64,000 nucleotides of DNA from Schizochytrium sp. TIO01 (Eukaryota; Sar; Bigyra; Thraustochytrida; Thraustochytriidae), in assembly GCA_004764695.1 (NCBI GenBank), contig SMSO01000031.1, positions 3,581,048 to 3,645,047 of the forward strand, in the 5' to 3' direction. The position numbers and the translations under genes were made by a program. The notes below the pieces were generated by a model. It was not told the DNA's origin. It made no database searches and saw only the letters and a program-made list of their open reading frames with translations. This document shows positions 1 to 31,975 of this stretch, one piece after another; the first letter of the stretch is position 1; each line of letters starts with the position of its first letter.

Positions 1-850
1 TCTCGGCATGCCCTCCTGAGATTGTTGCAGTGCTCGCGATTACGATACGCCCTGTGTTCGGGTTCCCAACGAGAACAGGATTGCGATCTTGAATCAGATC
101 AGTTTCAGAGCCTGCATAGACAGGCATAATCTGCGTCAAGGCAGTTTCTGAGATAAAATCGTCAAGCAGCGCATACGGCGAAGAGTCACTGCTGAGAGAG
201 AATGAGGATGCAAGAATATCTTTATCATCTCCAAGATCCAAATCTGCAGAACTAACAGTTTCCCAAACAACAACTACAGTTCCATTCGCGTCTGCTGCGA
301 TATCCGGATATCGTTTGTATCCAGAGCCTTCAGAAATAGCAATCGCGTAACCTTCCTCATCTCCTCGCCAAAATTGTCTATTAAGAGAGCTAGATTTATT
401 GATGTATGCGATTCTCACGCTCTCAAAAGTTGTGTCGAGAGCCCCACTGTAAATTTCAGCGGCAATATTTCGATAGGCAACCGCCCAACCTTGGTCACCT
501 AGCGCAACAAGCTGCGGTTGGGTTTGAATGCGATTCTTGCTACCCGAACTGTCTGATCTACTCACAAGAAGCGCAAACGCTTCATCACTCCATGTCTTTG
601 TTGAGCTATTACGAGTTCTATATTTGAGTTGTACGTAGTTCTTTTTGGAATTTGATACAACGGAGTATATAGCAAGACAATCGCTAGCAGCATCACACAC
701 AATAGCTGGACGTACTGATCCTGGAAAATAGAAGGCATCATCTGCACCGCACAACTCTTCTACTCCCCCCCACCCTCCAGCAGCAGCCAGCATCCGAGGC
801 CATTGAAGAAAGAGCACAAGTGCACTAAGTACAGTGGATACAGCCTTCAT
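1..850 (-). CDS. Giant sialidase-like/beta-helix surface protein, paralogue A (N-terminus only)
   Basis: The frame opens at an ATG on the minus strand (positions 848-850) and stays open for 283 codons to the left edge, so this is the 5' part of a longer gene. It starts with a signal peptide (MKAVSTVLSALVLFLQWPRM, then LAAA). It aligns throughout with the N-terminus of the gene at 3931-10369. Shared blocks include GYKRYPxxAADxNGTV followed by WE, DKDILxxSFSL, and IQDRNxV with TGRxxxxxTATI. In the longer paralogue this region is a BNR/sialidase-like beta-propeller, so an extracellular or secreted recognition domain is inferred here too. The two genes lie head to tail about 3.1 kb apart, which suggests tandem duplication followed by clear divergence. 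A C7 run at 765-771 lies just after the signal peptide, and the frame is intact across it. The actual function is unknown. Confidence 0.85.
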   Translation of the reverse strand, partial: MKAVSTVLSALVLFLQWPRMLAAAGGWGGVEELCGADDAFYFPGSVRPAIVCDAASDCLAIYSVVSNSKKNYVQLKYRTRNSSTKTWSDEAFALLVSRSDSSGSKNRIQTQPQLVALGDQGWAVAYRNIAAEIYSGALDTTFESVRIAYINKSSSLNRQFWRGDEEGYAIAISEGSGYKRYPDIAADANGTVVVVWETVSSADLDLGDDKDILASSFSLSSDSSPYALLDDFISETALTQIMPVYAGSETDLIQDRNPVLVGNPNTGRIVIASTATISGGHAE

Positions 851-1697
851 TACGGGTAATATATGAGGTAAGCGAGTACCTACCTACTTTGCTCTTGTTG
901 CATGCCTGTTTTGAGCAGCAGCCAGCTCTCTGATTCGGGTTTGCTGGAATTTGGTTTGGCCTTCCTCTTAAACCTTGTTTCGTTTGTTTTCTGTAGTTAG
1001 ACTCCTCAGTTCCTAGATACTGCTAATGCCCAGGAGCACCAGTCTTGTTTGTGTATCAGCTACCAAGAAACCTTTCAAAAGAAAACGATACCTCTAGTAG
1101 AACAAAGTCATAGCTGATCCTACGCCGAAAGCTCGGACAATTTGTTTTTGTGCATGCGCTCCTTAAAGTTGACCGCGGACTAAGCAATACTATCCATTGC
1201 ATCTTTCAGTTCGAGTAAAAACGTGCAAAGGACAGAGCGGCCCTGGTTCGTAAGAGTGCTTTAAGCGCTTAGTAAAGACTTTAAGGTGCGCTGGTGAACG
1301 AGAGAAAGCAAGCAAATGCTCTTCTCCTGGTTTTAGAGCAAAGCACAACCTGGGCCATTTTTCCGTTCATATCGCAAACAGTCTTTTGCAGCTTGCTGGT
1401 CTCTGGTCTCTGCACAAGCTCTGCGAGCGAAGGCTATGGCTGTGGCGTCCACTGCGTCGGCTAAGTTCCTGAACTTTAGTTTGCGCGGTTTGAGCTCCAC
1501 CTCCGAGTCGTCGTTTTGAGCTACCTATGCAGGTACCATGCAAAAAGTTCCAAATGCGCAAGTGCTCTACAAAAAGTGAAGAAAGAAAAGAAATGAGAAA
1601 AGAAAAGAAAAGAAAAGAAAAGAAAAAGCACCCTATTGGAAAAAAGCACCCTATTACCAAGACGAAACAAGATAATGGGACAATGGGTTTAAAGAAG

Positions 1698-1729
<32 letters not shown>

Positions 1730-3930
1730 TACGTAGTTTGCCTTTTCGTCTAAAACAAAGCAAAAGCCTGGAGCGCTTGTATGCATGCACAAATCAAGAA
1801 GACTTCTAATTCTTGGCTGAATTGTTGAAGTTAGAGTCCAACCAGGACTCTGCGTTTTTGCAGCAGTCTGAAACCTCAGCAGAACAGTATTGTGGCGCTC
1901 GATCTTCGATTCTTATTGCTTCTTCCCCGCCAATTTATCCACGTTTCGACGTCTGATGGCTATTATGATGGAGGAAAGTCTCTTAAGTTGATGCACAACG
2001 TCGCCAAAGCTCAGGCCTCTGACGATGCATCATCACGTGTGGAACATCATCTTCGACTCGGCACAGCTATCTTTACAAAGAATGATGCAAACTGCAGACT
2101 TGTCCCTGCAACTTATACGGGAGCCGTCTTCGTTCGGGGAGTTCGAAGCTTGAGCAAAGGTCACGCATCGTTGGGAGATCTCAGAGCCACCTGCATGATG
2201 GGGTACAATTATCGAAAGGCTCCTGAGCACGAAGTAATAGCAATTCGCCCAAACGTATGTCCCTCTTTAGTGCATTAGAAGACCAACAGTTGGTCGAAGA
2301 TGCCATCATTTCATGTAAAATCACAAGACCCCAAATTACATATCATCAGTCATGCGTGAAACCTCGAAAGCAGGTCTAGCGTTCCGAGCTTGCTGTTGGG
2401 GGCCGGCGCGGAGGCGAGGTCCGGCATTCCGATGGCCAAACATCGTCGCTGTTGCTGTTTTGTCATTAACTTGCCTGAACCTTTGGCGCGAGCCTCGGGC
2501 ACACCGCGTTGAGCACATGTTTAGCTCTTAACTTATTATTATTTTCTAGTTCCATTTTTTAAAAATAATCAAAGCTAAGTAAACCTTGAGTCAAACCAGT
2601 ACTAGGTAAGGGCTACTCGTAGCTACCGTAGGTGCACTATGTTAGAAATACACGGGTCCTTTAAAACTATTAGAGAATAAGAAAGAAAGAAAGAAAGGAA
2701 AAGCGTGTCAAATCTCCTTAGAATGAGGACCTAGAGAGGCGATTTCAACACTCTTCCGGGGTGTCGGCTCCATCAAGCTTCTCTCCTTCATAGTCACCAC
2801 TCTTATGATCAAGAACAGGACAACATCGTTAAAGCTGTTGGTTTTTGAGTTGACCTTCAAACCTCTGATGGTTTGTTCCAGCAATGCACTGTGTGTTTCT
2901 CAGTCAGTCAGGATTGCTGACTCTGACGTATTTCTTGACTCATAGGTGCTAAGGTATTAGTTAGGTGAGGTATAGCATGCGCAGGTAAGTTCCTTCTAGA
3001 TTATTACTAGTGCATACTGTAAGTGGAAGTTTTTAGCGACTGGTGTTCTTTACCTAAGTCTAGAGTAAGGGTATCTAAGATGTCTCATTTTCAAAGTTAT
3101 ACTTTGGAAATAAATATAATCTGGGCCTACTAATCATACTGTTTACGATAGAGGGAAAGAAAGCGAGAAAGAAAGAAAAAGGAGAATTAGTCGAAGAGCC
3201 GCAGCTACACGCATCTCAAGGGGGTTGATGTAGTAGAGTAGCAGGTAATGTTGGACGATTGAGAACGAAGTCCAATGGCACTGGTTTGGTTTAATAGGTG
3301 AACACGAACACATGGTAGCTTGGTGGGGTATATACTTAATTAGAATGACGTTTTCTTCCCGCCTTTTTGTTTGCCATTAAAAAACGTTTTTTTAATTAAA
3401 AAAGAAAAGGAAATGGAGAATTGTTTGTTTTTGCAAGTTTGAATTACAATATGTGCGACATCCTGACACAGTCAAGATCTGAGGTGATAAATTTCGAGCT
3501 TTCACGCCAAGACTATCATAATCCATCAATATTGAGCTTCAACCGTGAATCCCTACACATCGTTAAACCCTATTAATAACCCAATAATTCTTATGTTTTT
3601 GTAAAAGAAGGATTGGCCAACCTCAAATACAATGCACCACCGGCTGGAAAAATGTGCATTGTCATTACCAAATGTGGGGGAGAAGCTAACTTATGTAAAC
3701 GAAGGCCTGGTTTGGGGTAGCCTTTGGACATCTAAGCAGGAACCTTTTTAATTTCTATATATATAAACATAAGCTGAGTGAAGTTCATCCTGGAGCATTT
3801 TCATGAGCAGGATGCCAAAATCTCAATACATCGACCTAAAAATAAACCTACAAGTAACACACAATATGAGAATAATTTTCCTTGAGGGAATGCATGCCCA
3901 GGCAAAGGATAGCTTTATGAACGGTGGCGA
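851..3930. other. Intergenic spacer between the two giant paralogues
   Basis: This 3.1-kb stretch separates the 5' end of paralogue A from the 3' end of paralogue B. I see no convincing gene. The longest frames (1367-1792 on minus, 1892-2278 on plus) have no recognisable domain, and the first encodes poly-Leu from a microsatellite. It holds purine-rich simple repeats at 1596-1627 and 1699-1726, AAAG-type runs near 2680 and 3160, and AT-rich blocks near 3380. The paralogue A promoter must lie just above 850, but no motif stands out. Confidence 0.6.
1596..1726. repeat. GAAAA and GAA microsatellites
   Basis: Two purine-strand simple repeats sit close together. One is a (GAAAA)n run at about 1596-1627 and the other a (GAA)n run at about 1699-1726. 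They create spurious Lys/Arg-rich and poly-Leu open frames on the two strands. Confidence 0.9.
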
Positions 3931-6900
3931 TTATTGAAGGTCTACAGCTGTAGTAAACGGTCTGAGTTTCTCTTCTTCAGCTGTTTCTCCTTTCTTCTCA
4001 GCAGATGATAGGTGTTCAGCATCGGGGTGGTCGGCACCATGACGAAACTCCAGCATGTCGGAGGTAGAGAAGCTAGTTCCAGGGCTATGCGAAGAAGATC
4101 CTGGTGTTGGCGGATTCGACGTGCAAGCAAGACTTATACCACTTCGAGATGATGATTCAAATTCAAACGATAAATTGGGATACAGGCCATGGCGACTGAT
4201 GGTTTTATCTGCTGTGATCAGGGTGCTGTCCTCAGTTTGCTTTATAATCACCGAATTGGTCCTTGCCGAAGTTCCATCTTCTTCTGAAATGGCTTCAACT
4301 GTTTCATATCCCTCGCCTCCGCAAGGTCTAGAAACCTCCTTCTCACTAATACTATCGTCAAGCTTTACATTGTCAATCAATGGCAAATCTCCCTGCGAAT
4401 CCTCGTCAATAGCAACGCTTTTGTCACTCGGGGTATCAGGCTCCGAGTCAGCACATTTCCCATCATTATTAGATTTTCTATTTTGCAAAGATTTTGTTCG
4501 GATGCAGCAATTGCATCTGTTGTGAGCTCTTTTAGAGATCCGGAAGACGATTATAATAAACGCAGACAAAGGCACAATAAAAATAATGCAAATAACACCA
4601 GCCTCCAAAGCAACAAGGTTTTCAACCACTGTAGAGCTAAGCAAACAGATAAGAATACAGAACATCATAGCATGGGATATGGATGCCATAATGTTATCGA
4701 GTGGATTTACGTAAGGCCGTGCATGAGACTGCAAAGTTGAGCACAGAAAATTTACAAAGATAACAAAAGCAATTTGGCCCACAGTTCCGTCAGCAACTAG
4801 CAAAACAATTGATGTAAGTAGGAGCTTTCGTAAAAGCTCAATCACCTCATAATAACGCCGAAAACGCTGGCGAAAGGTTTTTTCGCGCCCTTCAATTTTC
4901 TCATTGTAATAAAGCTCATGCAAAAACGCAGCGCCGTGAACACATGGACGATGACTCATAGAGATCATGACAGAAAAAAGTATAGCAGTGCCAGGTACAT
5001 AAATGACGGCCATGGCTTTTGCAATAACTAAAAGCATCTCCATGTCGTCGCAGTTGGTTGCATAGTCAAAGCGCAGATAGCGGGAACCATCTTCCAATTG
5101 ATCACAGACAAACGACTGGAAGATTGTCGTATTGACTGAAGGAAAAACTAAGAAGATGAGAAAGATTGCAAGAAACCAAGAAGCCGAAGCGAGACTTGTT
5201 TTCTTTTTGGCCGCCTTAACAAAACACCGAACAATCGCGTAGGCAATAAAAAGGATCGCTAACAAAACCAAAGGAATAGACGTCGCGAGGATAACTTTGG
5301 TCTGATGGGTATTGGAGATTGCACAACCTGTTCTTGTAGGAAGCTTGGAAGAGTCCACGTTCAACCATGAAAATACTACTGTGAGTTTTCCCCAATTCGA
5401 CCAAAAGTCATAGGTCTGGCTAAAGACACGTTGGAAACCTGTGATGACCTGCACAAATCCAATAAGAATGCTGATTGGACCACGAGCATGAGACATAAAC
5501 TGTGATATTCCAGCTCGAGAGATCCGAAACAATTTCCGCGGGCCTGCACAGCAGCCACTGGCCGGCTTAGAGCGATCCCTTTCAGAGAGGGCGCTAGAGA
5601 AGAGGATTCCAATCACTAATGGCCATATAATGCACGCGACAGCCAGAATACTATATAGAATCGCTTGGTCAGCACGTGTTTCACTTTCTGTACATAGGGT
5701 GCACATTCCATCCGAGCCTTTGCTATAACCGTCAATACAAACTGCGCAAAAAGGGGCCAGTGTGGCCGTCCGCGCAATACAGAGCGTCAGACCATACAGA
5801 GAGGGCTCGCCTACTTCCATTTAAATTGCTTTCAAATATTGTGCTGTTCTCAGATATTCCTTTACCACCGATACAATATTTCGGGTACGGGCATTCATGG
5901 ATAACTGAAGAGGTCAATGATGCACGCCAATAGCCGGGTAGTAGCTTTAGGGTCTCAAGAGTGGAACCGGTTGAGTTGCAGTCCAGCCCTGAAGAACATG
6001 TGACAATATCAATGCTCCCAGAGCTATCTGTCATCATATAAAATCCTGAAGGAGCAACGCAATCATTCGCTGAGGTTGCTACGCCGACGGTGGTCTGTAA
6101 TTCATTTGGACAAGCCACACAACCCACCGAAATATCCTCAATGTAAGTTGCACGGGCGCACTGATCACACTCGTAATCACCATCGTCTTCAGTTCGTACA
6201 CGTTCATAGCCAGCTTTACATACAATCGAAGCGGTACTCATGGCATCACTAGGATTCGTACTTGTCCCATCCATTACTGCCACAACACGGAAGAAGCTAC
6301 CTTCACCCTCTCGAAGGCCCATACGAATTCCTCGAATGCCCGGCACTAACGTAAAGGCACAGTCTTCGACTACGTATGGAGACTCGTCAGCGCTAGTGCA
6401 AGCGAGGGCGAGATCTACAGTATCGTCATCTTCATCTCGGGTGGCGGTCCGATAAACTCCAAAATAATCTGGCTCGTCACCATTCCAAGTCCAAGTCAGG
6501 TCGACATAGCCATCAGCATCATATTCATCTTCAGAATACTTTGCAGCAGCTTGAGAGCGAACAGACTTTACACGACGTAACTCGCATCCACCTTCTTCAT
6601 AGCCATCGTCGCCATCAACAACACCAGTGCAAACACACTTAACACTGGGTGAGTAGCCGTCCTCGTTTTCATAGCATGTTCCATCGGAAGAACACGTACC
6701 AGGACACCCGATCACTGCGGTGGATGGAGCGAAAGAGGTAGCATCTCCATCGAAGGTGGTTTCTGAAAGACGAAACCGGGACTCAGAATAAACATAACGA
6801 CCAGCTTCGTCTGCAAAAGAAAGAACATCACCAGTGGTGCTGGTAAAGGTAGACCCGCTTGCAATTTGTGGAAGAGGGTTACTTCCTTCAAAATGACAAG

Positions 6901-9900
6901 CATGTATGTGTGCTGAGACACCAGCAGCAATGTAAATACTACCTCCCACACCCTTTGTACACCCATCAGTTGCCGCAGCCTGCATAGCTTCATTAAGTGA
7001 ACACTCAGCAGTCTGATAAGCACCTTGAGAGGTACTCGTTCCAACATCAATCTGAATGGCACTGCATCGTGTCCGATTTGACCATGCAATGGTCATTTCG
7101 CATCCAGACGTTTCGCGGCAAGTCAATTGGGCGGAGTTATTGTAAAAACTTACTCCACTAAGACTTGCCACAGTGCCAGCACCAGAGTACAGGGCTCCAC
7201 CCTGTGACGAAGCATCATTCAGAGCGAAGATGCATGATGCAAGATCTACCTCGGCACCCGCTAAAGATGCAATGGCTCCACCACTTTCTGATGCAGAGTT
7301 TCCATAAAAAAATGATTCCGAGAAAAGAGCTGCAACAGTTCCATCGAGATATACACTTCCTCCACTACCTTGTGTAGCTGTATTGTTTGCCAGGGAACAG
7401 TCATAGAAGTCGTATGAGTCAAGGTTAGGAGATTCTTCGTAAAATATTGCCCCTCCGTATAACGCAGTGTTAAGGTCGAAAGTACTGTTGAAAATACACG
7501 CATGAGAGTCGTCGCAAGCTGAAAACTCAGAACTTGGGGCATAGGCACCAACAACATGGAGCGCTCCACCACCAACAGCAGCAGAGTTTCCAGAAAATAT
7601 GCTACCAGTCCAAAGACTCGGAAGAACACTCCTTTTTTTGAAATCCAAGGCGCCGCCACTCATCTCTGCGCTATTGTCTGTGAAATTAGTGCTGATGATG
7701 TTCCTTATTTCTGCGCCTATTTCAATACTAATTGCACCTCCGCCTCCACCACAATGATTGCCCGAAAATAAAGAATCCTTTATGGTCCCAATATACCCCA
7801 TAACGTCGATTGCACCTGCGTTACCTGTACCCAGTCCGCTCTGTCGGTTATCGATGAATTGGCAACGATCAATAAGGCCGATAGATCCTCGGGTTTTGAC
7901 GATTGCTGCACCGCCCAAAGCTGCAGTAAGCTCTTGGAATACGCAGTCTACAACCTCATCAATTTGACCTTCTACGGTGAGACCACCACCTTGACGAATT
8001 CCAAGGGAGCCGCCAGCAGTAGTTTTGTAGAACACACAGTTAGATATACGCCACACTCGCCCAAGTACAAGAATGATGCCGCCATAACGATGTGAGCCCT
8101 GGAATGTTGTTTTGTTCATTTGAAAATGGATATTTGTCATTTCCCACATTGTTGCTTCGAGTTCAACACGAAGAAATTCCCAGCCTTCCATTTGCACCCT
8201 TTCACCTTCGCGAGGCTGTCCCACAAGAGAAATGTTGGTTCCGGCTCTTATTCTAAGCTCCTCAGTTACGTAAACTGTCGGTGCAGTGACAACAATCTCA
8301 CCATGGACAAAGTCTTCATCTAGAAGAGCATCTTGGAGTTCCTGGTAAGAATCTGCATAGCGAGTTTCAAAAACTATCGAGCCTCCTCCAAGTTCGCCAT
8401 CTGATGACTCTGTCTCATTACTGGCAATTGGTGTAGCCCATGCAACCAGAGTTGCGGGAAGCTTGCCCTCGTCATCTCCAAGACCTCTAAGGTCATTTAC
8501 AATGAAAAAGTAAGCCTCCTGTCCAGTAGATTGAATGTCCTCATATGCACCTTTTGCACACAGTCGCCGGTGGGGCCCAAGAAAGGGGGTGTTGTTAAGT
8601 TTATTTTCTTCTCGAAGAGCAAGGTAGTCGAAGGGGCAGCTCGAGTCATTTCGATACGAGCTATCTAGTTCAAGGTCCAATAAGATTTCAAAAGACATAT
8701 GGACCTGCGCACCTGAGATGTTCGGAGCAATCATGTGAATGCACTGGTCTTGCTCCGGAGCCATTTCAAGTACGTAGCTTGTAAGATTGACCACACTTCC
8801 ATCGCTTGGTAACTCGATGCTAAAACACGCGAAATCAATAGACTCATCTACGACAAAACCATGGGGTGCGACTTCAGAATCGCTGTGGTCTCCAAAAACC
8901 ACCTCATGGGTTGTGTTCATAACGCGATACGCTCCATAATCATCATCACTCGAATTCCTCCATACTGTTGCGATGATGTAATCACCTGATGATGTGGCAC
9001 TTGCGGTAATGCGGTACAACTCTATATCAAGATTATCATAATCTTCTGAGATATCTGCGAAATACGGCAAGCTCCATGTCTGACCATCGTCGGTGGATAT
9101 GCGATAAGCGACCCTTACCAAGTGTGTCCCTGGGGTTTCATAACGATAGAACACCGACCAATAGCCTTCCATTAGTGGATCTGCTACGACCATAACTTTT
9201 TCGTCTCCTTGTCGAGTTGGAAACATGAGGTGATCTACATATCCTGTTTCCTGCATTTCTAAAAGGCTTTCATCATTGGGCTGAAGCTTTGCCCACTTAA
9301 TACCGACACTTTGGTGATTCCACACCACCATCCATGTATCGGAAAAGGGGCTCCAAGCAATAGCCAAGTCTGAGTCTTTACCATCGTAGTTTGTTAATCG
9401 AAGGCGATCTTCCCAGCCACATGTATTGCTCTCTTGTTTAATCTCACTAAGCATAATGTCTGCATATCCGCTTTCAATCGTAGCAGTGACGCCCATTAAT
9501 ACGCGTCCCGTGCGTGGGTCTGCGGACATCACTGCATTGCGATCTTGGATTGTATCAGTTGTTGCACCTGCAAAGACACTCGTAACCTCGGTGAGGTCAT
9601 ACTCTGAAGTATTTTCTCGTACCCTCCCGAACGGATCATCGGAGGTAGCAAGTGAAAATGATGTTGTTAAAATATCTTTGTCGGTGCCAATATTTGTACC
9701 ATCAGCAAGGTAAGCATTGTTGGTTTCCCAAATTGCAAAGACTGTTCCATTTGGGTCTGCAGCAACAGCAGGATAGCGTTTGTATCCACCAGCTACAGAG
9801 TTTGCGATTACAGCGTTTCCGTAAGATCTTCCACGAAACATAAGACCATTCTCAGCATCTTCCTGACCAATATATGCGACGTAAATGGATTGCCCACCAG

Positions 9901-10369
9901 TACAACATTTCCCGTTTGCCCTGTAGATATATGCAAAGGTCCGGAAAACAACTGCCCAACCACTGTTACTCAGTGGTGCAACATAAGGCTGGACCTGTCC
10001 ATTTGGGTGATCTATTGCATATGCATAGTTCTCGAACAGCGCGAGGGACTTTTCACCCCAGGTTCCATTGGCATACCGCAGCTTGTAAAACAGCTGAACA
10101 ACCGAGTTTGAAGGATCTGGAACGGTGGTTTCTGGAAAAATTGAAATGCACGAATTGTTGGTGTTGCAAGCAAGCGCCGGCCTGAAAGCATTGTTTGCAG
10201 TAATGCCGCCACCATCGAGCCAATACTCTGCATACCCGCTAAATGTTGTTTGGTTTGACCAGCCCACCGCATTTCCTGCAACTTTGTGGATGTGTAAAAG
10301 TGCGCTTATTATTGACAGCGCAACCAACAAAGTATTTGCAGCAAGGCTGGGCCATCTGGCCAGCATCAT
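3931..10369 (-). CDS. Giant receptor-like surface protein: propeller, CUB, beta-helix repeats, eight membrane spans (paralogue B, frame broken once)
   Basis: Two overlapping frames (1545 codons from 10369, then the frame ending at 3931) together encode about 2,150 residues. Visible in order: a signal peptide (1-32); a sialidase-like propeller (about 35-490) with an Asp-box at STDDGQTWS (425-433); a CUB-like domain (about 540-645); a beta-helix (about 690-1130) with repeated GGAI/GGAL and FxxN/FSGN units of the polymorphic-membrane-protein type; an EGF-like CxGxCSxxGxC segment (about 1220-1262); a fibronectin-III-like stretch; Cys-rich CxxC modules; and a GHTGPFCAVC motif. Eight hydrophobic spans and a roughly 200-residue Ser/acidic cytosolic tail follow. 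Many N-x-S/T sequons fit an extracellular N-terminus. The family is known in stramenopiles, ciliates and algae, but its ligand is not. The frame shifts inside an A5 run (plus strand 5748-5752); removing one base restores the motif. This is either a sequence error or a real lesion. A role in adhesion or sensing is inferred from architecture only. Confidence 0.8.
5748..5752 (-). other. Frame-break site in the giant receptor gene
   Basis: On the coding strand the sequence is CCCC followed by five T. The upstream frame reads GHTGPF, then LRSLY and a stop. With four T it would read GHTGPFCAVCIDGY, matching the Cys-x-x-Cys module expected before the first membrane span. The break is therefore one surplus T. 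A homopolymer sequencing error is the simplest reading. Confidence 0.8.
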
Positions 10370-16249: not shown

Positions 16250-17467
16250 ATGCGCTTCCAGGGGTTTGTAAGGAGCGCTGGCCGACGGCGCAGTGGAGCT
16301 AGGGGGGGTCCTCGTTTAGACCTTCTCGGCGAAAAAAGCGGCGCAGGTAAGCTCATGCGGCTCATGGACTGGAGCCGAGTTGTGGTCGCTGGCGGCGTCT
16401 TGCTCCTGCTCCTGCTTGCTTTTCTTGGCAACCGTGAATGGCACGCTCGGAATGATGCAGAAGTCATGGGCCATGGGAGTTTTCGGTCTCTGCCTATTGG
16501 CTGCGATACAGTCTGGTGCCAGACCACCCGTAACAGCATCAAACTCGCCATCGTCGCCGACTTGGACCGTCAATCCAAATTAGAACTCGGCATTAAACAC
16601 GCTGGATGGAAATCATTCTTCAAAAGGGCTACACTCTCGAAGGACTCTAATCTCGGACAGTGGGTCATCAACTGGGAACCTGATTTCCAGCTGGAGTCCC
16701 ACCTTGGTGAGGATGGCCGTGGTTTGGAGCTGAGCGAGCTCGCGACCTGGCAAGGCAAGCTCTGGACTTTTGACGACCGCAGTGGAGCTGTCTTCGAGAT
16801 AACGAACTCTAGGGAGCCTGTCTGCATTCCACGGTACATTCTTATGGAGGGCGATGGCAACAATGACAAGGGTCAGAAAACTGAGTGGGCAACTGTCAAG
16901 GATGGAAAATTGTACGTTGGAAGCTTTGGCAAACCGTACACACAGAATGGTGTCATCACTACAAGGAACAATTTGTGGATTTCAATCATTCACCCAAGTG
17001 GATTTGTCGAGCACGAGGATTGGACGAAGCGTTATGAGCGCATGCAGGTTGATACTGATAGCGTGTACCCTGGTTACATGGTTCATGAAGCTATTCACTT
17101 TGATGAAATCAACCGTCTCTGGTATGTTCTCCCTCGGCGCGTCAGTCATGACCCCTATGACGAGAAGCGCGATGAGGTTATGGGCAGCAACCTGATGCTC
17201 GTATATGACGAGAACTTCAATAAGCTCCACAAGAAGATTAGCATTGGCAGGTCCGTGCCGACCCATGGTTGGTCATCTTTCAAATTTGTCCCGTACACAA
17301 ACAATCGTGTCATTCTCGGCCTTCGCAGCATGGAGATTGAAGACAAGGCTGATGGTGCCGGTGAACAGAATACATACGTCACAATTTTTGATGTCGAAGG
17401 AAATGTCTACCTCGAGGAGGAGCTCATTCCTGGCGGCCACAAATATGAAGGAATTGAGTTTATCTAG
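16250..17467 (+). CDS. CANT1: Calcium-activated nucleotidase (apyrase, CANT1-like), type II membrane protein
   Basis: Hydrolyses nucleoside di- and triphosphates (typically UDP and GDP in the secretory pathway) in a calcium-dependent way, which helps clear the UDP released by glycosyltransferases. The 405-codon frame has a short basic N-terminus, one signal-anchor span (about residues 41-61, VVVAGGVLLLLLLAFLG) and a lumenal apyrase domain from about 100 to the end. Family blocks are clear: IVADLDRQSK, LATWQGKLWTFDDRSGAVFE, TEWATVKDGKLYVGSFGK, YMVHEAIHFD, WYVLPRRVSHDPYDE, PTHGWSSFKFVP, and the C-terminal KYEGIEFI found almost unchanged in animal enzymes. A start at ATG 16355 (MRLMDWSRV), right before the span, is an attractive alternative. 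It converges with the deubiquitinase gene, 718 bp away. The family assignment is firm and Golgi location is inferred. Confidence 0.93.
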   Translation: MRFQGFVRSAGRRRSGARGGPRLDLLGEKSGAGKLMRLMDWSRVVVAGGVLLLLLLAFLGNREWHARNDAEVMGHGSFRSLPIGCDTVWCQTTRNSIKLAIVADLDRQSKLELGIKHAGWKSFFKRATLSKDSNLGQWVINWEPDFQLESHLGEDGRGLELSELATWQGKLWTFDDRSGAVFEITNSREPVCIPRYILMEGDGNNDKGQKTEWATVKDGKLYVGSFGKPYTQNGVITTRNNLWISIIHPSGFVEHEDWTKRYERMQVDTDSVYPGYMVHEAIHFDEINRLWYVLPRRVSHDPYDEKRDEVMGSNLMLVYDENFNKLHKKISIGRSVPTHGWSSFKFVPYTNNRVILGLRSMEIEDKADGAGEQNTYVTIFDVEGNVYLEEELIPGGHKYEGIEFI

Positions 17468-29170: not shown

Positions 29171-31975
29171 ATGGACGGCCTTGTCTGGGTGCTGGTGCTG
29201 CTTATCTGGCAGTTCTATGGGTCAGTAGTGCAGGCGTCGCGTACGCCACATGTACTCTTCGTTTCTGTTCCCGTTTACCGCCACGCGGATCCTTTAGTGT
29301 AAGTAGTTTAAAGTAATCCCTCCGTAGAGTTTCCTGGCTCGCCAAAGACTGCACCGACAACTCAAGCTTGGCGCAGAAGTAACCTGGCAGCAACGTTGCA
29401 ATTCTGGGGTTATGAAGGAGTGGCACAAGAAAAGATTATTGATGGTGTTAATGGTGCATTTGAGGTTACATCTAGACAGCTTGGCATTCTCACACAAGCG
29501 AGTGAAGCATGACATGGGCCACGAAAACCTGGTACTGTAATGCACTGCTCTTGCAAAATCCAAACAGCGGCCATGCATGGTGCAACTGGCTTTGTAAACA
29601 CTTTGGCTAAAATCATGGCCAGCAGCCTCAGCCTGCATGCACTTCAGGAAACACGTTATAAAGTCAGATCAAGCATGCCTCGGAGTCGCCCTCAAACCAC
29701 AGCACATTACATCACGTCAGATCAGTGTACGATGCATACACAAACGTGGACAAGCTGTGCCAGTTTAGGCAATACAGGATCAATACAAAAATCTTTGCCA
29801 TCAATAGTCGTTGATGGATTCATGATCTAGAACAAAGTTCGACTAACCAATAGTTTGTTGATTCCTAACGGCTTACTGCATCTCAATATTGGATGTACGA
29901 AAGTATTTTCTTTGGGAATTGTTTATGAATAGGGCGCATATAGAGAGATAGCTAGCCAATATGCAACGCAGTATGGAGTCCCTGTTCGCTTCGCAGTTCC
30001 GTCATGGTTTGCGCCCAATCTGTTTGCGGGTATGCGACAGGAATTATTGAAACTTCTTGACGTGGCTCTTCTGGACCATATTCCAGATCCGAGGCCTTTA
30101 AGCGAAGTCAAAACTCCAGATGATTTAGATTGTGACAGTACAATGTCACTAGCTATTGAGTCTTGCACGATTCACAATTATGCATGTAATTTAAGAGACA
30201 GTTCTGGTCTTTCTAACACATCAAGAGGAGATCTACGGAGGCTCTTTGAGAAGTCCATGACTGATGCCCTCCTGCGTTTATACGGTTTCAAACCAATGAA
30301 GCCGAGGGATGTGGGGGATAAATTAGAGTTTAGACGTGACTCTGGTCCACATCACCATGATTTGCCAGCACTCATAGTTGTCGATCGATACACATTGGCG
30401 GGGTTCAATTTTGCTCATTTCACCAAGACTCCATTTGTCCTTCATAACCCATGGACATTGTTAGACATCGATGAGCCTCCGCCATTTGTCAGAAGCCCTG
30501 GCGCTGGACCTAGTGCAGGAAACCTTCATATTCTATCACGCTTACGTAATTTTTGGCATCGTCTGAAAGGAAGAATTCAAGATGCCAGATATGCCCAGGA
30601 AAGCTATAGCGAGGTTCGCGAAAGTCTTAACTTAGGAAGCCTTGATGTGCCAGGCGGTTACTGTGAAGAACGCCTTGTCTTAAGTGACACAGTGCTCGGG
30701 TGGCTCGATGAGCCTCGGCCAATGCCTCCATTGCAGCAGCTGATTGGTGCGGTGTTACCTCCACGCTCCCGAATATCCTCATTTCCAGCTTCTTCAAACT
30801 TTGGGAATGGGCGTCCTGAATTCAATCAGTCGCCTAGGCATTCCCAACAAAATCAATTTTTGTTGTTGCAAGGAACCTACCCTCAAGAAGACTTAGAGGT
30901 GATATTCCGGGCCAGCGCTGATCTCAATATGACTGTGATTCAACTTGGGGAAAGATGCCTTAACTACAATCTACTCTCACGTTTTTGCGATTATTATGCT
31001 CGACATCAGCATTCTGACGTCCAGGCTCAAAGAACTGATCTAGGGGAGGAGGACATTCACGCTGAACAGATTGTTTTGCTTGCTAATGGAGATATGTCAT
31101 GTGTTCATTTAGCGGGTGTGTGCAATAATATCAAGAGACTTCTGGTCTACCCCATCCTTCCTGAGCAGCATGAAGTTGCTGCTCATGGTTACAATAGTGG
31201 AATTGTGTCTTGGATTTTTCAAGGCCCTTTGAAGCTTCGGGATGTTAAAAAAGCGTTTCGAACAACGCGGAAAGATGTACAGCAAGATCACCAACTTCGA
31301 TTATTCGGTTATTCTTTACGTGTTGCCGGCGGCACGAAGCGTGCATCGTTATGGATATCTCGAGCCCTGGATTTTGAGTTGTCTCATTTTCTGCCTTTAG
31401 ATTGCGGCCTGCCCTGGCATCAGAATCTTTTCATTGATGTCTACGCGCTGTACTTTTGCGGCTTGCTGGCTTCAGTAGTGGTCCTAAAAATTATATGGGG
31501 AATGGCTGCTGGGGCAGTTGACCCACTTTCTGAACAGGATGCAGATGGTTCATCAATTTTTAAGTTTGACGATGGCCCTTTAAAGCTTTTGAGTGATCGC
31601 GAGGCCCAAGAAAATTTATTAGATAGCGACAATTCACCAAGTATAGCGTCAAAATCTAGAAGCGCAATGCCAAGTGGTCGATCCGCATCGAATAGTAGTT
31701 TACAGAGGCGTCGTGGCCGTACAAGTGATCGTCAACAATCAGCCAATGGTGAACCAGAGACATTTTCAGGCCGTTTGCAACATGCCCAGGACAATAAAAG
31801 ATCCACGTGCAGTATCCCATCAGATTCCTTTTCTTCCACTGTTGCCTCAAAAGGTAATGAAGTAGATTGCTTCAGTACCTCAATGGAGACCCCACAAGGG
31901 GTTGAGCAAGGACAGTCAAGGCCAGGCACGCAGAGAAAGAAAAAGTTATTTTCCTACGAGAGGGTAGTTGCTTGA
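29171..31975 (+). CDS. UDP-glycosyltransferase (GT1/UGT-like), membrane-anchored; 5' part split by introns or damaged
   Basis: Transfers sugar from a UDP-sugar to a small acceptor in the ER/Golgi lumen, by family analogy. The 5' end at ATG 29171 gives a signal peptide (MDGLVWVLVLLIWQFYGSVV) followed by TPHVLFVSVPVYRHADPL, the classic GT1 N-terminal strand. Coding then changes frame: FLARQRLHRQLKLGAEVTW, ATLQFWGYEGVAQEKIIDGV, and SLPSIVVDGFMI, joining GAYREIASQYATQYGVPVRF from 29933. The long 3' exon (29933-31975) carries the rest. A degraded donor-sugar region (CVHLAGVCNN... PEQHEVAAHG) replaces the usual HGG signature. The C-terminal WISRALDFELSHF/DCGLPWHQNLFIDVYAL block and one membrane span match animal UGTs, followed by a roughly 150-residue basic/Ser tail. 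A 66-nt GTGAAG...ACAG intron (29502-29567) fits well. Other joins are unresolved, including a one-base problem near 29380 and a TAG before 29933. It could be a pseudogene. Confidence 0.7.
29299..29329 (+). other. Candidate 31-nt micro-intron in the glycosyltransferase
   Basis: A perfect donor, GTAAGT, follows the codons for HADPLV. An AG at 29328-29329 rejoins the frame at FLARQRLHRQLKLGAEV, the expected GT1 sequence. The segment contains in-frame stops and is not a multiple of three, so it cannot be translated through. At 31 nt it is unusually short for an intron; an insertion is the alternative. Confidence 0.45.
29502..29567 (+). other. Candidate 66-nt intron in the glycosyltransferase
   Basis: The donor is GTGAAG and the acceptor CAAACAG, preceded by a pyrimidine stretch (CTGCTCTTGC). 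Removing it eliminates an in-frame TGA and keeps phase, joining RQLGILTQA to TAMHGATGFVNTLAK. Confidence 0.5.

Follow-up and report, generated by a model that had tools for sequence, protein, structure and literature searches.

Tandem array of three giant paralogues

The window, that is the whole stretch of 64,000 nucleotides analysed here (G000:C30:3581048-3645047), comes from a thraustochytrid genome of 64.06 Mb in 37 contigs, which was searched exon by exon as that of a eukaryote. Across the window the G+C content, taken in steps of 2 kb, varies between 0.36 and 0.52. Using the proteins encoded in the window as queries, we identified in the genome an array of three same-strand paralogues, A, B and C (Table 1). 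A preliminary description of this DNA had reported two head-to-tail paralogues; the paralogous minus-strand N-termini were confirmed, but the number of tandem copies is three. Further copies to the left of the window, a point raised in that description, were also searched for: B extends past the window edge and C was found further left. The spacers measure ~4.6 kb between C and B and ~3.1 kb between B and A, and genome searches with the window proteins revealed no additional copy adjoining the three. Up to the frame break in A the sequence identity is 43% for A and C, 41% for A and B, and 55% for B and C. In the same region four-fold degenerate sites differ at 66-72% between copies, showing that the duplications are old.

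Table 1. Features of the array in the order in which they are encoded, followed by dispersed relatives. Residues refer to copy A (ORF1 unless ORF2 is given)
Feature	Location	Strand	Basis or description
Copy A, whole gene	window 3931-10369	-	two overlapping frames, ORF1 and ORF2
Copy A, ORF1	window 5732-10369	-	1545 aa
Copy A, ORF2	window 3931-5820	-	629 aa
Hydrophobic N-terminal stretch, signal-peptide-like (ORF1 residues 1-33)	window 10271-10369	-	hydropathy
Propeller-like domain, putative, seven blade-like segments (residues 34-500)	window 8870-10270	-	segment spacing, shuffles, sub-threshold BNR
CUB-like region, putative (residues 501-655)	window 8405-8869	-	four invariant Cys
Beta-helix, GGA[ILV]/FxxN repeats (residues 691-1130)	window 6980-8299	-	Chlam_PMP over cut-off; motif counts
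Cys-rich region ending in EGF-like six-Cys pattern (residues 1131-1262)	window 6584-6979	-	Cys pattern
Ephrin-receptor-like Cys module (residues 1376-1440)	window 6050-6244	-	Ephrin_rec_like
Pre-membrane Cys region, PGYWR motif (residues 1441-1541)	window 5747-6049	-	common to D33 and E31
Frame break ORF1/ORF2	window 5747-5763	-	at five-T run
Common core with Cys box and eight or nine spans, nine preferred (ORF2 residues 20-436)	window 4513-5763	-	profile, hydropathy
Predicted cytosolic tail at the C-terminus, Ser/Thr-rich (ORF2 residues 437-629)	window 3934-4512	-	composition, topology
Tail motif [LI]S[FL]E[FML]	window 4159-4173	-	one occurrence per tail in A, B and C
Copy B, N-terminal part	window 1-850	-	left window edge cuts the gene
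Copy B, whole gene	C30:3575520-3581897	-	single frame, 2125 aa
Copy C	C30:3564451-3570909 (outside the window)	-	single frame, 2152 aa
D33	C33:3014962-3019959		FG-GAP repeats; found in the first genome search
E31 (L017/L018)	C31:2315893-2322141		2082-aa single frame: LRRs, Cys stalk, multi-span core, protein kinase; likewise found in the first genome search
F33			ShK and beta-helix
H31			LamG head, EF-hand end
J34			cadherin and TIG stretches

Copy A had been regarded as complete, which does not hold, since its two ORFs overlap in different frames. The overlap contains a five-T run. Similarity to B and C runs in ORF1 up to window position 5747 and resumes in ORF2 from position 5763 with no gap, and both B and C read through at the corresponding position. 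An intron as the cause of the break is not supported, because the similarity to the paralogues is uninterrupted. Four overlapping pairs of long frames were listed in the 294,000 bases scanned; a five-T run lies within the overlap in A and in L032, and is missing from the overlaps of the other two. Such a run is present in ~10% of 90-base stretches, as estimated from nine coding sequences. Thus, both giant-gene breaks (2/2) fall at T-runs against a background of ~10%, which is a hint of slippage at these sites; the number of listed pairs, four, is small. Possible origins of the break in A are a fault of the assembly, a genuine lesion and slippage during reading. The second case (L032:6032-6120, corresponding to C32:1623032-1623120) concerns a giant gene whose repeats are of the TIG and ephrin-receptor-like types and whose frames overlap like those of A; its multi-span part yielded no Pfam match at E<=0.001.

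Head and stalk of A, B and C

Signal peptides had been proposed for the paralogues. Hydropathy identifies a hydrophobic N-terminus in A and C, while B falls under the threshold used and its signal peptide is recognisable by eye only. The following domain had been described as a sialidase-like propeller. In all three copies we could pick by eye seven blade-like segments, 56-77 aa apart, within the N-terminal 470 residues; segments chosen in this way favour their own match in subsequent tests. When six blades were used to score the seventh against 300 shuffles, 4 out of 21 segments were matched by no shuffle, 5 by 4 to 15 shuffles and the remaining 12 by 20 to 300. Comparison of the propeller with itself gave P 0.07, PDB searches with the head found no match among solved structures, and ten other ectodomain pieces from the family described below matched the ABC propeller no better than controls did. 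We regard a propeller fold as likely for the N-terminal domain of A-C, though not as proven.

Its identification as a sialidase is another matter. Sialidase propellers have six blades. The possibility of an enzymatically active head, either a sialidase or another glycosidase at the cell surface, draws on a single Asp-box-like stretch in A, scoring 13.3-15.3 bits with BNR; this is below the BNR cut-off of 27, BNR is absent from the Pfam scans of B and C, the seven blade-like segments do not support sialidase identity, and no solved structure was matched. We therefore regard an enzymatic head as highly improbable. Taken as an established fact, the sialidase-like propeller does not stand, given the partial support from Pfam, PDB, self-comparison and leave-one-out tests: a propeller is plausible but unproven, and the sialidase part of the claim is not supported.

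The presumed CUB-like domain retains four cysteines that are invariant in all three copies, but neither Pfam (no match at E<=10) nor the PDB profile search (no CUB chain) lends it support. By contrast, the chlamydial-type beta-helix repeats were verified, with Chlam_PMP exceeding its cut-off of 20.6 bits in every copy (A, 37.1; B, 21.7; C, 58.1). POMP_repeat matched C, the sole copy scanned, with E 5.7e-20. A genome-wide search with Chlam_PMP, a profile of 19 positions, produced no match at E<=0.001 despite these matches in protein scans. The GGA/FxxN repeats are shared with chlamydial Pmp autotransporters; however, the C-terminal barrel of the latter has no Pfam match in A-C, which have several hydrophobic spans instead.

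Downstream of the beta-helix, an EGF-like and an Fn3-like region had been suggested. The six-Cys pattern of the former is found in all three copies, but Pfam EGF matched C only, at E 0.22 and far below the cut-off, and no Fn3 match was present in Pfam scans of A, B and C. Genuine Cys modules are present: B and C exceed the Ephrin_rec_like cut-off, whereas A does so in the genome scan (26 bits) but not in the protein scan (18.8 against a cut-off of 23.1). The stalk of A-C matches those of E31 (P 5.3e-10) and D33 (P 1.1e-6), and the beta-helix matches F33 (P 2e-9). Sequons, a weak guide to topology, are distributed 22:2 between ORF1 and ORF2 in A; C has 29, 5 of them in the tail.

Membrane core and C-terminal tails

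All copies continue into a Cys box followed by a multi-span region, the core, which we compared across the ten genes introduced below. Invariant positions across the ten cores are five cysteines, one arginine and one proline. The averaged hydropathy of these cores displays ten peaks; one pair of peaks belongs to a single fragmented stretch and another pair to a single long one, giving eight or nine spans. Accordingly, the multi-span part of the preliminary description stands, and the eight spans counted there become eight or nine by hydropathy. We favour nine spans, with the N-terminus outside and the C-terminus inside, because loop charges alternate as expected and the kinase end of E31 requires an odd number.

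The tails of A-C, as cut, comprise 165-194 aa with 16-27% Ser+Thr; those of A and C are Ser/Thr-rich, and that of B is Pro-rich with 16% Ser+Thr. Conservation between the copies differs by part: identity is 54-74% in the Cys modules of the stalk, 38-54% in the propeller-like domain and beta-helix, 30-42% in the core and 19-24% in the tail for the two copy pairs computed. Since the Cys modules are the most conserved and the tails the least, the copies may have kept related ligands while feeding different outputs.

A family of at least ten genes with a common core

The Cys-box and multi-span core is shared by ten giant genes of the genome: A, B, C, D33, E31, F33, G30, H31, I30 and J34. A search with PF24633 (DUF7630) at E<=0.1 returned seven places, three of them over the cut-off. 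The core is present at six of these (E31, F33, G30, H31, I30 and J34), the exception being K13. Conversely, a DUF7630 box can be detected in eight of the ten cores at E<=1. Searches started from five other cores returned members of the same set only. Ten genes is a lower bound, the best candidates alone having been scored: 4 of 18 Ephrin_rec_like places (C13:3871443, C34:629597, C34:902815 and C30:460725) and a sub-threshold TRP place (C36:3392191) were left aside. H31 and J34 run beyond the sequence pieces analysed.

With a profile of the ABC core, the closest relative is D33 (P 1.8e-19), followed by E31 (3.2e-16), I30 (1.8e-9), G30 (1.8e-8), F33 (1.9e-6), H31 (7.7e-6) and J34 (8.1e-4). Seven reversed cores gave P 0.037-0.57 with this profile. 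The best of 84 block-shuffled cores, derived from G30, reached P 0.00078, which is about the direct value of J34; the latter is thus weak directly and joins the family through H31, the two cores matching each other with P 3.1e-14. Core kinship was not supported for the multi-span controls K13 (P 0.67) and L032 (P 0.2), which have a DUF7630 and an Ephrin_rec_like match, respectively, nor for the TRP-like pair L031 (P 0.79 and 0.074).

While the core is constant, both ends of the proteins are exchangeable. The heads are propeller-like with beta-helix, FG-GAP, LRR, LamG, cadherin/TIG or ShK with beta-helix, and the ends are Ser/Thr- or Pro-rich tails, EF-hands or a protein kinase. The kinase of E31 (Pkinase, E 5.8e-40) has the glycine loop and the AVK, HxD and DFG motifs. 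Separate genes for the ectodomain and the membrane part, an arrangement that would have counted against the preliminary description, were not seen in this genome: head and core reside in one gene in 10/10 cases, with the frame break lying between them in copy A. The proposal of a duplicated and diverging receptor-like family is therefore supported, and the family is larger than supposed, with three tandem and seven dispersed genes having a common membrane core. The wider family, with its exchangeable heads and kinase-bearing member, is the surprising part of these results. Scans of viral contigs and of bacterial and archaeal genomes, each with two short patterns, found no relatives.

Relationship to known systems and possible function

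In build, A-C resemble the cysteine repeat modular proteins (CRMPs) of Apicomplexa and other alveolates. As described in the parts of the sources considered here, apicomplexan CRMPs have varied heads, including ephrin-receptor-like modules and a parallel beta-helix, a nine-span core and a long phosphorylated tail (PMC9815656). CRMPs, or GCC2/GCC3 domain proteins, are known from Toxoplasma, Plasmodium, Babesia and Tetrahymena, with eight to ten spans counted in Babesia and five predicted in Tetrahymena, and neighbouring duplicates occur in Babesia and Theileria (PMC9815656, PMC9670195, PMC9843837). Many CRMPs are reported from Chromera and Paramecium, and similar predicted spans from Dictyostelium (PMC9815656). 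CRMPs are required for rhoptry secretion in Toxoplasma and exocytosis in Tetrahymena, and have been proposed to be sensors of host contact (PMC9670195). The authors' attempts to identify downstream signalling partners failed, according to the sections considered (PMC9815656).

A-C have a large ectodomain of varied modules, among them the beta-helix and Cys modules, relatives with other heads, Ephrin_rec_like (GCC2/GCC3) repeats with the reservation made above for A, a multi-span core, a tail, and neighbouring duplicates as in Babesia and Theileria. The conserved core of CRMPs, as far as the consulted sections describe it, consists of two EGF-like domains and nine spans, compared with one EGF-like pattern and spans for which nine is preferred over eight in A-C. 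There are also clear differences: the heads of A-C are propeller-like and CUB-like and those of their relatives LRR, FG-GAP and cadherin/TIG; the tails are shorter than the 478 and 565 aa given in the same sections for Toxoplasma CRMPs; and the family here includes the kinase-bearing E31. A PDB profile search with the core retrieved no CRMP. On our comparison, A-C are CRMP-like in architecture. We consider it probable, though by no means certain, that the three copies are old tandem duplicates within a family of modular multi-pass receptors whose build is that of alveolate CRMPs.

Adhesion GPCRs likewise place a large adhesive ectodomain on a multi-span core, but the likeness ends there, as A-C have eight or nine predicted spans and no GAIN/GPS match at E<=1; the PDB profile search linked the core to a GPCR fusion at a mere E 0.023. 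Oomycete transmembrane TKL kinases, in the portion of PMC3019232 considered, have extracellular LRRs, and E31 similarly joins LRRs, several spans and a kinase. It differs from them in its Cys stalk and in the core of the A-C family, and A-C themselves have no kinase match.

A further question is posed by TRP-like proteins (PF06011). H31 passes the cut-off (30.5 bits versus 28.5; 33 bits in the genome scan), which allows for a channel-like core or ancestry, and TRP matched two of the ten cores at E<=1. The core could then be a channel or carrier with an extracellular lever. In that case A-C would be channels, gated mechanically or by a ligand, and not receptors that act through protein outputs. 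Against this, eight cores, including A, B and C, have no TRP match at E<=1, A-C do not attain the gathering score, the ABC core has no match in L031, the TRP-like pair of the same genome, and a kinase end suits a receptor. We consider a channel unlikely.

Alternatively, A-C might be mainly adhesins holding the cell to a surface, the core serving only as an anchor and the tail as a cytoskeletal link. The large repeat ectodomain, the higher conservation of Cys modules and head than of core and tail, and the FG-GAP, cadherin and LamG domains of the relatives would fit such a role. However, a multi-span core kept in ten genes exceeds the needs of an anchor, and the kinase and EF-hand ends point to signalling, so that a purely adhesive function seems quite doubtful.

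Most likely, as far as can be judged from sequence, A-C are ligand- or contact-sensing receptors. The reading as a receptor family is favoured because parts are swapped at both ends while the core stays, and it gains most from the paralogue E31, which joins the same core to a protein kinase. Of the earlier proposal of adhesion or glycan-sensing receptors, the receptor idea is thus strengthened, whereas 'glycan-sensing' depends on a putative sialidase-like propeller. In such a receptor, extracellular ligands or surfaces would be bound by the head, the Cys stalk would relay this binding to the core, and the predicted cytosolic end would carry the signal by recruiting partners; other members may signal via their built-in kinase or EF-hands. 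A thraustochytrid could plausibly use such receptors to sense substrate, prey or settlement and might respond by secretion, in analogy to CRMPs.

More speculatively, the Cys box with nine spans might represent a receptor module of ancient eukaryotic origin, separate from GPCRs and perhaps distant kin of TRP-like proteins; lineages would plug different heads and cytosolic ends into it, among them an active-looking kinase. Apicomplexan CRMPs would then be one specialised branch, and A-C a contact- or substrate-sensing branch in thraustochytrids; we regard this broader scenario as possible but tentative. Through a free-living family of CRMP build, in which the same core bears a kinase or EF-hands, the output side would become accessible, and the apicomplexan invasion sensor would find its place within a broader set of environmental receptors. 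The family also provides named candidates for surface sensing and settling in thraustochytrids.

Among the matches listed from the open-licence literature, titles and abstracts do not describe the family in thraustochytrids or other stramenopiles, and no paper in that literature combines 'cysteine repeat modular' with 'stramenopile'. In the sections considered, none of the candidate ectoplasmic-net proteins of PMC12221091 is recognisable as this core family, and the same applies to the contents of PMC12223298 and PMC10445921.

Further observations in the genome and the window

Two pairs of adjoining frames were noted in the genome. L031 (C31:2835845-2843145) consists of two TRP-like frames with PF06011 over the cut-off and long Thr/Pro-rich stretches before the spans. 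L033 (C31:1504560-1509635) consists of two Cys-rich frames, each with one span by eye and with Ephrin_rec_like over the cut-off in both.

Elsewhere in the genome, a PfaA-type polyunsaturated fatty acid synthase frame is located at C4:612080-617209 (1157.4 bits with in-frame neighbours against a cut-off of 1010.1). Another frame at C4:608161-611037 has a PfaA-type match of 925.7 bits, and an oppositely oriented frame of 2044 aa nearby (C4:591651-594563) has a PfaA-type match below the cut-off. In the control, 0/14 genomes had a PfaA-type match over the cut-off and 11 had one below it. The opposite-orientation arrangement is one known in thraustochytrids.

Within the window, an apyrase gene (16250-17467; PF06079, E 8.2e-97) adjoins the array. 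A 647-aa ORF at 30032-31975 has no Pfam match at E<=1e-5, and the stretch at 48513-50015 matches cyclic-nucleotide phosphodiesterase (PF00233, E 1.9e-10).
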